In this document: in pieces, positions 25,486 through 46,400 of the stretch
How the letters are laid out: each line of letters begins with the position of its first letter
Numbering within the stretch: position 1 is the first letter of the stretch
Source of the DNA: Aldrovandia affinis
Lineage: Eukaryota; Chordata; Actinopteri; Notacanthiformes; Halosauridae
DNA: 64,000 nucleotides
Direction: 5' to 3'
Assembly (NCBI GenBank): GCA_029706075.1
Contig: JAINUG010000108.1
Span: 1,488,001-1,552,000 of the forward strand
The notes under the pieces: model-generated
What the model was told of the DNA's origin: nothing
Databases searched by the model: none
What the model saw: only the letters and a program-made list of their open reading frames with translations
Translations under genes and position numbers: made by a program

Positions 25486-28400
25486 GTCAATAGAGAGGTC
25501 CCCCTTGTCTGTGTTTGACTGCTTAGTAAAAAATAAAAAAATAAACAGCTGATTAATCAATCAATCAATCTTTATTTTTGTATAGCGCCATTTACAAACA
25601 GGTTGTCACACAGCGTTTCACAATTGGCATTTTCCAGAGGGAATTTAAAAAAACTGAAAACCATTGGAGCCAATGTGGGAGACTGTAAAATGATTCCCTG
25701 ACCCCTTAAAAGGCGGTCGAGATGAACTCCTGGAAAATGGTGGGATACAGAGAAAACCAAAACAAATAGTCCTTGAGGCTCATGATGCTTAACAGACCAC
25801 CGGAAGGGCATTCTAAGTGTAGTGGTGGGGTGGACCTCATCCCTCCAGATACCAGGGCAGGGCGGGGGATGGAACCAGCAGCTAGGGTCCGGGCCAGCGG
25901 CATCCGGCTAACACATGGCAGGGGTGGGGGGTTGATTCTGGGGCAGGTGAGCTCCGGGCAGGTGCCACGAAGCCGGGGAGAAAAGAGGAAAGGTGCAATT
26001 ATGACTATGATAAATATCACACCGGATCAGGGGAAAGAGATTAACCTTCGTAATCAGACAGTTATTTTGTTTCCAAAGATCCAGTCACTTTTCTTCCCCA
26101 AAACTGTAAATATTTGTTCTCCACCAGGAGGCATAAAAACACCAAAGTGTAGTAGTGAATGGCCATGGCTGATGGGTGGAGAGGCCTCACAAGGGCAAAT
26201 GCGTATCTTCTTTTTGTAGAAGTGAGCTTCACTATGGCTGAAAAAGACCTTGTACCTTCTTTATGTAGAAGTGAGCATCGCTAGGGTGGATTAAGGCCTT
26301 TTACCTGCTGTGTGTCAAAGTGAGCCTACCAGCAGTTTCATAACACCAACTCTCTTTAGTTGGCCAGATGACAGACTTATTCCACAGAACAAAATGAGCT
26401 CCATAAATATGAATGTTTGTGCTTTCAAAAAAACTATAGATTTGCCCAGTGCAACAAGCTGTTTCTCATTGATGGTTGCTTGCCTACAATCTTGCCTCAT
26501 TGCCTACGAATGATATCTGCATAGTCTCCTCTTTTTTTTTTCTTACACAGTGGTGAAAATTGACATGAACTCTTCCCAGACATTGAAGTGTAGCTATAAT
26601 GTCTAGAATGTATCAAATGTGCTCCATTTTTTATGATTATTGTTATTATTGTGTAGAGTCCTGGTCAGCAGGAGGTGTTGGTGCAGCAGCATGTGGAGCT
26701 TCTGCAGAGAGTAGTCCAGGAACAGAACAGACTCCTCACTCTCATGAATCCAGGTGGGTGTATCATTATCATCATAATTACTATGTCATATAGCAGACAT
26801 ACTATGTCATATATACATATCATGTTGTATATACAGGCAACTGACAAAATAAAGGAAACACTTGAGTAAATGAGGGATACAAAATATATAGTCAGATGAG
26901 TCATCCTTCACCCTATTCTCAACAAGTGGATGAGTCCATGTGTGGCACACTCCAAAATTAACCTACAGGCACAAGTGCTTGTTTCCCACAGTGAACGGTT
27001 CTAGGGGCTCTGTTATTTTATGGAAGAATGGTGTTGCATCCCTCCAATAGAGTTCCAGACACCTGTAGAATCTATGCCAAGATGCTTTGAAGCTATTCCT
27101 GTGGCTCTTGGCGGCCCAACGCCCGATTAAGAAGCTTTATGTTGGTGTTTCCTTTATTTTGGCAGTCACTTGTGTATTTACATATGCTGTATATAGTCAT
27201 GGCAACTTACTATCCATAAGACAATTGTGATACAGTGTTACCTTAACTGTCACCGGCACACCGGTGGGCCTTCTACATCATATAGCACATTCTTCTTTAA
27301 ATATCACAGTTAAATGTACCGACAATATGAACAGGTATTACATGCACAGATCGGGTGGAATCTCGTCTTTCCAGCAGTGGAGGCTAATCCACGTCAACTG
27401 TGATGTCGCGAAAAAAATCCTGTCCTGATTCAAGGCAAGGTACTCTAGGAGAACAGCTGCTCCTTACCTTCGGTGAAGTCTAGAAGTCTCAGAATATGAC
27501 AGATCATTGAAAATGTGAGCATGCTGATCACCATAAGAGTTTAACGAACAAAAGTAGTGACCTGCTTTGTCACAATAGCAAGCCAAATCGAGAGAGTTTC
27601 AATGTTTACTTTGCACTTTGTATGGATAACAACAGCAAATATGTCATTCTCCTGGATATACGAGATATGTGAGTATGTTCCACATAGGAAAGTTTTGTAT
27701 TCTCGTGATGGTAAATCTTCGATAAAAAATGAAGCCCACTCCCATCATTCTCCGATAAGTATTGGCCAAACCCCATGCCCCCCAGATTGTTCAACCCACG
27801 CTACCAGTAATATAATCAGGTGGCATGATCCATTGCCATAATCAATATTACTTTCCTCCACATATGCTTAAATTGGTCTAGGGTTCTAGAAAATGGGATA
27901 TTTTTTACAACGATATAAGGTTTTGAAGGTTTCGACCCGGTTTTGACGACCAGGGTCCCGTTTAAAACTGGTGAGTAGATAATGGTCAGCTGGTAGGTGG
28001 AAGTGTCGGCTCTGCCACCCGAAGACACCTATCAAGTTCATGTCCTGTGATGTGCCCTTATGCTTTGTAGCAAAGAGGGATTGCTTCAATGACTGGCACA
28101 ACCAAAATAACCTATAGCTTTTCCTGTGTTGACTGACTAACACACTGTAAATAGTTTTGTGCAATGAGGGGAGACAATTGGCTGAAGTACAATTTTGTCT
28201 TGGCTAAAAAATATTTGTTATATTATTTATATATTATATATTATTGTAATATATATATATTATTTATATTGGTGCAATATTTTGATAGATTTGATTTATT
28301 TTGCTAATGTTGACAGCTGTTGTTGTTTTTTTGTTTTTTTAAAGTTGATAACGGTAAATGCCTGTTGGTTACTTTTTTTATCATTGGAAAAAACTTCTGT

Positions 28401-43400: not shown

Positions 43401-46400
43401 GGGTGAGCACTTTCTATACCCACTGTTTATATATATATGTGTGTGTGTGTGTGTGTGTGTGTGTGTGTGTGTGTGTGTGTGTGTGTGTGTGTGTGTGTGT
43501 GTGTGTGTGTGTGTGTGTGTGTGTGTGTGTGTGTGTGTGTGTGTGTGTTTACAGGTTGTCCCAAATATTGGACTAATTATTTAGACCCTTTTAGAGCCAG
43601 AATGATTGAAATCCTATTATTTGGCCCTTTCTTCCTTTCTTTCTATCTTGCTTACTTCTTATCACATACTGTAACTCTTCACAGAATTTCCCAGTTTTTC
43701 TAGTTTCACAGACCTATTGGTCAATACTTATATATAACTAAGTATAGGTACTTAGTGTAGTACAGTATACAGCCTATATATAACTGTGTGCTACTTATAT
43801 GGTTGAAACATACATTTTTAACATGACAGCATGTTTTCACAGCATTCATTCATTCGCCTCACTTTACATGTATCAGGCAGGGGCTCACGTTTACATGTGC
43901 ACAAAGTGCTTGTTATGGCTTCTGGTTCCTGACTATGCCCAGCCATGCCCAATATGGTCACAAAAAAGGTTATTTCTGCATAATGATTCACAGCATTGTT
44001 TCACGGGATGTTCATTATCTGTCATGTCTAGATGTGTGTGCAGTACTTTTGGTTGGAACAGGTCATAGGCCCCACCCGATGTGGCCACTGGTGGGGCCTA
44101 TGACACAAGTGCATAACGCCCCACGGCATTCACTTATTCCTCTTAAACGTGGTGCACCCTTCACACAGTCTGTGCAGGTGTGCATAAACTAGTTCTCTCA
44201 GACTTTGGTTCCTGGCCATGTAAAATGGATGGCAGTCAGCATTCACTCATGCATCTAATATATGACATGTTTCTTTAGATGAGCATGGTCTTCAGATGCA
44301 TGTTTGACCCTAGCTCAAAGTTATCGTGAAGCCTTACGGTTTGCCCGAAAACGTATAATTATATTTTTTTTCTCCAAAAATATCTTGTGTTTTAGATGAG
44401 GCAGTTCCAGGGAAGGACCACTCTGATGGGAGAAAGCTCTCTCCCGTCAAGGAAGAGAACACAGAACAGGGTGAAGAGCTCTGTCCTGTTAGCCCATTTG
44501 GGATAAGGAGAAAGCCTTCTGCAAACCCTGAGGAGAGGTGCAGTTCCAACACATAAAGGCTCAGATTCAATCTAACCACAATGCCATTTATCCCTTTTTC
44601 AAACCACATTTTCAGTTACAAAATGAAACAAATCTTGTTTTTTTATTATTCGTACACAGCAATTACTGTGGCTCTTGATTCTGTGCTTCAAATAAAATTT
44701 TTTTAGAAATGTACATGTGTTTTGTAGGTTTTTTTTGTTTTCGTTTTTTTTCAATTTAAGGGCAGTTTATTATAGTTAAACTTACAGTCCTTTCCAAATT
44801 CCTTACATTTGTTCAGTACATCTGCCAGTCGCAAACAGAAGTCCTCATATTAAGTGATATGCACCTATGTTTTAGACCCATCCGGCCTGGAGTTGGTGCA
44901 CAACAGAAGACATTTGAGGAATTAGTTGAAGAACAGCTGAAAGCTGATCAAGACATTCTGCAAAAAGAAAAACAGGTATTAGAAAGGGGAATAAAGCCCA
45001 AAATCTAACTACAGCCCTGGCCAGTGAGCACCCAAAGCACTTTCGTTTTTCATTTACTGGGGGAATGGATCAGCTACCTGCCTCTACCCTGACTCCTCCC
45101 ACCATCTGTGTAACATTTATCTCCCTTTCTTAGGGAAAGAAAGAGGTGTTGGAAAGTAAGTATTTCCTGAGGAGAGGAGATGGAATGTTCCGGATTGAGA
45201 GAAGCAGGGACAGTGTGCAGAAGGCTCAGAGAAGAGCGTCCCTTATCCCACCACCCAGGAGAGTGAGTTCCGCAGTCCAGCATAGACGCTTGTCGGCACC
45301 ATCCCTGCTTCACCTGGAGGAGGTGAGGGTGGACAGTAACCCACCTCTGGTCCAGGTGAGGAGCAGCCCAATCCCACCGGTGTCCCAGGAAGAGACCGCT
45401 GGGGCTGGTAATCGAGTGGGAGCAGACCTCACAGTGGAACAGGGGAGCAACAGTAGCATCGGGCTGCAGGGAACACCACAAAGCAAGGTCGCAGAAAATA
45501 TCGTTCCCAGCTACAAAGTAGCAGAGAATAAAACTAGGACAAAAACACCTGATGACATGGTGTTCCATCGACACCTGTGTGTGGCTGAAAGGGACTGTCA
45601 CACTCAAAGGCAAAAGGGAGAAGATGAGCCACAGAGCCAGACCTTTCAAAGTGCCACAGTCCCGACCGAAACGGAGCAGCCTTTGCCCAGAGGCCAGTGT
45701 CTTCCCAAGGACAGTCCTCACGTCAGTGAAGTGAGAGCAAGCGTCGGGTTCAAAAAAGTAAATGACCGTATTGTTAAGGTCTCTGAGGGATGGGGTCTCG
45801 TGACAGGTGGTGAGAGGAATGGTGCGCGCGGCGGGTGGGAGGGGCGGGGCCAGGTCAGGGAGGGGACTTGGTGCTCGCCCTCGAGCAGCTCCGGCGGCGA
45901 GGCCGTTCCCGTGCGCCAGCGCCGCGAGCACGCGGCTCTCCAGGTCCCGCCCTCGCTCGGACACAAGGATCAGAACCTGGACCTGTCCGAGGACGACTAC
46001 GCCAGCGACGCCCCGAGCGAGGCCGAGGCCGGGCCCACCTCCGGGCCCCTGACCCCCCGGGGCCCGGCGGCTCTCCTCCAGCAGCTCTTCAGCTCCAGCA
46101 GCTGCAGCTCCAGCAGTGACGAAGAGGAGCTCAGGGCCTTGCGCAGGCACAAAGCAGCGGTGCAGGCCCCACGGCCATTTAGGAAGACTGTGGAGAGGAG
46201 AGCCCTGACACAGAAGCCCACCGGCGGTTGTGGAGCGCGGGTGAAGTCAAAGCACCCTTCCACATCAGGGCTTGTAGCACGCCTGTTCCCCTCCATGAAG
46301 ACTAAAACTAAAGAACCAGCTCACAGTGGACACAGTGACAGGTCACTGGGTTCAGGGGACAGTCAGTGCGGTGAGTATACGTGAATCTTGATCAGTTGTA

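Follow-up and report, generated by a model that had tools for sequence, protein, structure and literature searches.

The stretch of DNA considered here (the window, 64,000 nucleotides; contig JAINUG010000108.1, C91:1488001-1552000) comes from the 1.22-Gb genome of the halosaurid fish Aldrovandia affinis, and all positions below are counted from its first letter. A HOXA13 homeodomain had 117 matches in this genome, with Hox13-like ones (78-93% identity) on five contigs and larger groups of Hox-type matches on seven; although some of these contigs could belong to a single cluster, the animal is most likely a post-duplication teleost and not a gar or bowfin. It contains a CPAP/TCP10-like gene on the plus strand and, within that gene, two single-exon genes of seven-transmembrane (7TM) receptors on the minus strand. 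We suggest, with a probability of about 0.68, that the receptors are nested antisense in two consecutive introns of a long TCP10-like host gene and that a short host exon, here named exon N, stands between them.

Receptor 1 (31910-32869, minus strand) is an intact open reading frame (ORF) of 319 amino acids, and receptor 2 (39804-40781, minus strand) is an intact ORF of 325 amino acids. Both match the Pfam family 7tm_1, with expectation values (E) of 3.6e-34 and 2.2e-33, respectively, and in the gene model both lie antisense between host exons 2 and 3. A previous sequence-only reading of this DNA had placed the two genes on this strand at these positions, which was borne out. It had also stated that exon 2 (26657-26753) ends in phase 1 and that exon 3 (44396-44537) resumes in phase; the joined reading frame confirmed this. 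The antisense nesting itself was supported by the exon order, the phases and the match to the PN2-3 module described below. The further claim that a single intron holds both receptors probably does not stand, given exon N between them.

Exon organization of the host gene

The model supports a CPAP/TCP10-like gene that would extend on the plus strand from about 25.2 to 54.1 kb. It covers 25207-49516 and 52424-54148, the interval from 49516 to 52424 lying outside it. Joining the ten host exons from 25207 to 49516 gave a translation of 878 codons without a stop.

The coding part of exon 1 (25207-25485) has an open frame, starts with ATG and ends in phase 0; its assignment to the host is proposed from position and phase. 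An acceptor site seen by eye near 25036 suggests an additional 5' noncoding exon upstream. Exon 2 runs from phase 0 to 1, exon 3 from phase 1 to 2, exon 4 (44876-44975) from phase 2 to 0, and exon 5 (45134-46370) from phase 0 to 1, the latter being open and including CPAP-like stretches such as FLRRGDG. The joined open frame then continues through exons 6 (46512-46632), 7 (48132-48255), 8 (48978-49193) and 9 (49412-49516), all on the plus strand; exon 8 matches the CPAP coiled coil (E 9e-5). The C-terminal exons (52424-54148, plus strand) carry a Tcp10_C (G-box) domain (Pfam E 2e-56) and the stop codon and match the CPAP structure 4bxp in PDB with E 9.9e-79.

The region from the end of exon 3 through exon 4 and into exon 5 matches the tubulin-binding part of CENPJ (a chain of PDB 7q1f, E 2.4e-8) and also PDB 5itz (E 5.8e-8). 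Exons 3-5 thus appear to encode a PN2-3-like tubulin-binding module of CPAP type. In exon 3, the only matching residues are the last ones (NPEE-R), at its 3' end, within an alignment that extends to exons 4 and 5; no match to CPAP was detected for the body of the exon. The sequence-only reading had held that exons 2 and 3 both match CPAP. This is true of exon 2, whose similarity to human CPAP has P = 0.0002 in shuffles, and of the final residues that exon 3 encodes. The short TCP10 proteins of mammals are not known to have the N-terminus of CPAP or its tubulin-binding part, and the TCP10-like host in the window seems to retain both.

Comparison with cenpj of the same genome

A gene on another contig (C1912) was taken as cenpj. 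It matches human CPAP from the N-terminus on (DFLTRWM), and its N-terminal part matches CENPJ in PDB with E 1.5e-13, compared with 2.4e-8 for the gene in the window. The C1912 gene is therefore the better CENPJ, and the gene in the window would be TCP10 rather than CENPJ itself. Its orthology to TCP10 as such rests on the neighbouring genes.

Host exon 2 resembles cenpj exon B (P = 0.001, 5,000 shuffles), a pair that was absent from the plain tblastn listing, and host exon 4 shares 50% identity with cenpj exon D (E 8e-7). The phases are equal in both pairs (0 to 1 for exon 2 and exon B, 2 to 0 for exon 4 and exon D) and the order is the same. Because the cenpj homologs of exons 2 and 4 agree in both order and phases, exons 1 and 2 probably belong with exon 3 onward, and all of them probably form one transcript. 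Between exons B and D, cenpj has exon C, with phases 1 to 1, after which one more exon with phases 1 to 2 is needed (C2, a weak prediction). Host exons N and 3 carry the same phases, 1 to 1 and 1 to 2, while host exon 3 and C2 have no similarity in sequence (P 0.95 in shuffles). The two genes are thus alike in the homologs of exons 2 and 4 with their equal phases, in the PN2-3-like stretch and in the Tcp10_C domain. They differ in that cenpj has introns of 1,104, 456 and 609 bases where those of the host are long, and among the 123 receptor matches scored, none was on the cenpj contig.

A probable host exon between the receptors

The search for exon N was made for open exons of at least 90 bases with phases 1 to 1 within 26754-44395; strict thresholds gave nothing and were then loosened. 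The stretch 38845-39057 (plus strand, open, between the receptors) came out on top of 32 phase-compatible candidates with a score of 8.6, the next one reaching 6.5, and two more of the first seven candidates were shorter forms of it. On the opposite strand of this interval, no candidate scored above 4.0. The stretch has a guanine and cytosine (GC) content of 58%, a value exceeded by none of the 872 windows of 213 bases sampled in the interval, and it was found once in the genome by a DNA search that skips common words. Its position and phases agree with those of cenpj exon C, but its sequence does not.

We consider it quite likely that 38845-39057 is a host exon that had been missed. Since this probable exon lies between the receptors, what had been described as a 17.6-kb intron probably consists of two. 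With exon N in use, the intron around receptor 1 would measure 12,091 bases (26754-38844) and the one around receptor 2 would measure 5,338 bases (39058-44395), both on the plus strand.

Identity of the receptors

The third-helix motif reads NRY in receptor 1 (32515-32527, minus strand) and DRY in receptor 2 (40427-40440, minus strand). Among the best 60 of 77 PDB matches of receptor 2, HCAR2, HCAR3 and HCAR1 came first and neither GPR31 nor OXER1 was named, so these matches cannot separate GPR31 and OXER1 from the HCAR proteins. When the genome was searched with receptor 2, receptor 1 was found with 79% identity, the next match by E having 33%.

In a tree of 12 rows that included human sequences, the two receptors formed a pair outside GPR31, OXER1 and the HCAR proteins (support 97/95) and were separated from two other receptors of the same genome. 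Forcing them into a clade with human GPR31, a long branch, gave p = 0.022 in the approximately unbiased (AU) test and is thus disfavoured, but the three other placements examined were rejected at similar levels (0.026-0.038). The receptors did not group with human GPR31, and the tree gave them no secure place. The earlier description of both genes as GPR31-like therefore holds at the level of the HCAR/OXER1/GPR31 superfamily of class A 7TM receptors, to which we assign them by their matches, and does not extend to GPR31 orthology by sequence. The name GPR31, which denotes the 12-HETE receptor, would rest on the neighbouring genes TCP10, UNC93A and TTLL2.

Candidate polyadenylation sites (AATAAA, a motif common in general) were found past the stop codons of the receptors on the minus strand at 31828 and 39674, the latter preceded by the variant ATTAAA at 39728. 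All three lie well short of any host exon.

Divergence and probable gene conversion in the receptor pair

The receptors are 77% identical over 316 aligned codons, with 0.127 nonsynonymous (dN) and 0.319 synonymous (dS) substitutions per site by the NG86 method, so that dN/dS is about 0.4 overall. The synonymous divergence is distributed unevenly: dS is 0.99 in codons 1-60, 0.11 in 61-150, 0.14 in 151-210 and 0.41 in 211-316, in segments that were picked after the profile was seen. Fourfold sites differ at 17 of 109 positions, and in the four segments at 5 of 11, 3 of 41, 3 of 40 and 6 of 17, respectively. Synonymous differences occur in 38 of the 236 codons with identical residues; the longest run of such codons without one is 80 (P about 5e-5, 20,000 shuffles), and a block of 100 codons contains just 5 differences (P 0.0008, 5,000 shuffles). 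The flanks of the receptors (28000-34300 compared with 38100-44395) share two matches of 18 and 27 bases (E 0.08 and 0.3), which are at the level of chance, and the duplication is accordingly old.

This pattern suggests that the ends of the pair are old and that the middle was homogenised recently by gene conversion, which would have acted across host exon N. A similar profile could arise if synonymous sites were strongly constrained in the middle of the receptors, but conversion is the simpler reading. Among publications judged by their titles, nothing was found on gene conversion between nested genes.

Proposed organization and its alternatives

Based on the above results, we propose the following picture of the locus. 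Plus-strand transcription of the long CPAP-paralogous gene would cross two intronless receptor genes that face the opposite way, and these would each have a promoter of their own and yield an unspliced message. As the candidate polyadenylation sites precede any host exon, the mature receptor messages need not overlap host exons, and the contact between receptors and host would be limited to the host pre-mRNA. Two largely independent expression programmes are likely, with transcriptional interference possible just where both are active. The receptors would stem from an old duplication, and gene conversion has probably overwritten their middle part in recent times. If crossing over took place between the two receptor genes, which are direct repeats, exon N would be lost; since this exon is symmetric (phases 1 to 1), its loss would leave the host frame intact.

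Several observations weigh against the arrangement with exon N. The agreement of phases with cenpj exon C is partly built in, as exon N was sought with phases 1 to 1, the sole fit between exons 2 and 3; exon C was scanned as both 1 to 1 and 1 to 2, candidates coming from 1 to 1 alone, and C2 was chosen to fit. No similarity in sequence was found by shuffling between host exon N and cenpj exon C (P 0.63) or, at a detectable level, between host exon 1 and cenpj exon A (P 0.66). Control scans of four other stretches of the window reached 4.6, 9.1, 10.3 and 4.1, and the two scores above that of exon N both come from stretches with real genes. Among 300 order-1 Markov sequences, 8 held a candidate as good as exon N. 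Codon usage does not favour the frame of exon N over both others (16.6 bits, compared with 26.8 and 16.2 in the other frames) and was dropped as support for the exon. Finally, exons 3 and 4 score weakly at their acceptor and donor sites. The alternative is that 38845-39057 is no exon and that a single 17.6-kb intron holds both receptors. In its favour, exon 2 joins exon 3 in frame also without exon N, and exon N lacks cenpj similarity and a frame-specific codon signal, while its score is matched by some null sequences. We regard such a single intron as unlikely, as cenpj seems to carry two exons, the second of them weak, between its counterparts of exons 2 and 4, and exon N is both the most GC-rich stretch of its length among those sampled and the top phase-compatible splice candidate. 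A different layout, in which exons 1 and 2 (with exon N) are a separate gene or the remains of a dead one and the working TCP10-like message begins downstream of both receptors, would agree with the short form of mammalian TCP10, with the lack of detectable homology of exon 1 and with the weak splice sites of exons 3 and 4. It seems improbable, since exons 1, 2 and N have open frames that join exon 3 in phase, exon 2 is still similar to cenpj, and the PN2-3-like stretch is retained in exons 3-5.

The sequence-only reading had also proposed that transcription of either partner could affect the other and that the nesting would explain why GPR31 and TCP10 stay linked. A gene at 55750-57516 (minus strand, Pfam TTL E 3.3e-78), which from its position we take to be ttll2-like, is un-nested, and two UNC-93 pieces were recognised by domain match on the minus strand of the right flank. 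The block of tcp10-like, receptor, ttll2-like and unc93-like genes corresponds to the human 6q26-q27 interval, for which a deletion study lists the genes in a row as CCR6, GPR31, TCP10L2, UNC93A, TTLL2 and TCP10 (PMC5723635). Because the whole block is conserved and its un-nested ttll2-like and unc93-like members are linked as well, nesting is not needed for the linkage, and that part of the proposal was not supported. In a stronger form, selection would keep the nesting through mutual regulation of host and receptor, which is compatible with either intron layout; functional coupling has indeed been described for GPR52 and its host RABGAP1L, which share one orientation (PMC4372774). We give this idea little credence. 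Besides the linkage of the un-nested neighbours, the expression divergence of nested genes in mammals is raised slightly, not significantly, according to a survey of nested genes (PMC8467205).

A further point concerns zebrafish. A zebrafish Gpr31 has reportedly been studied. The mouse genes Tcp10a, Tcp10b and Tcp10c were reported to have no zebrafish ortholog (PMC6609395), which also speaks against mutual regulation; taken together, the two facts suggest that the receptor can persist where the host gene is lost.

Comparison with known nested genes

Gene-inside-gene layouts are well known, and the present locus is a new example, not a new principle. In the survey of seven vertebrates, 4.3-8.7% of protein-coding genes belong to nested structures, and 74-78% of simple nested pairs in human and mouse lie on opposite strands (PMC8467205). 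Intronic receptor genes have direct precedents in P2RY5, with RB1 as host, and GPR52, with RABGAP1L as host. P2RY5 (LPAR6) in intron 17 of RB1 is likewise an ORF of a G-protein-coupled receptor (GPCR) in reverse orientation in a large host intron (PMC2361346); one receptor, one intron and an unrelated host are involved there, in contrast to two receptors in probably two consecutive introns here. GPR52 is likewise a single-exon GPCR in an intron of a host conserved from human to zebrafish (PMC4372774), but it has the orientation of its host and its functional link to the host was tested, whereas our comparison is one of sequence. The LRRTM genes in alpha-catenin genes show the same opposite-strand nesting, with an old origin and lineage-specific loss (PMC3933685); those families are different, and their conservation was studied across vertebrates, in contrast to one genome here. 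No published GPR31-TCP10 nesting was found among reports judged from titles or the beginnings of abstracts.

Two features of the locus are worth following: a host exon probably separates the receptors, and the receptors have apparently exchanged sequence by conversion. As a tentative extension, the layout might be ancestral for bony vertebrates. A full-length TCP10 with the N-terminus of CPAP would then have hosted GPR31 in its introns, and mammals would have un-nested GPR31 upon loss of the 5' exons of TCP10, leaving the genes adjacent; in the present fish, receptor conversion would continue, with the symmetric exon N in a recombination-prone, frame-safe spot. If this held in other fish, the locus would be a case in which nesting and un-nesting can be dated, and a long TCP10 with the CPAP tubulin-binding part would help to explain the origin of the short mammalian TCP10 proteins. 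The locus is also a clean case in which to ask whether the intervening exon is endangered or left untouched when the nested copies on its two sides undergo conversion.

Other genes and elements in the window and its flanks

Two kringle pieces and one trypsin piece at 5316-15441 (minus strand), presumably plasminogen-like, point away from the host gene. The left flank shows a weak match to the major facilitator superfamily (MFS), below the Pfam cut-off, and a fibronectin type II piece.

The intron with receptor 1 contains an older element resembling a long interspersed nuclear element (LINE) at 34300-38050, which probably surrounds a younger truncated one; a match to the reverse transcriptase family RVT_1 (E 9.8e-18) was found at 36477-37073. 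The probable younger retrotransposon fragment (34940-36301, plus strand) is delimited by a 16-base direct repeat at 34940 and 36286 and has a poly-A stretch at 36266-36285. About 80 bases past exon 2, an element at 26835-27170 was seen by eye to have the inverted ends CAAAATAAAGGAAACAC and GTGTTTCCTTTATTTTG, and it is probably the remnant of a small DNA transposon.

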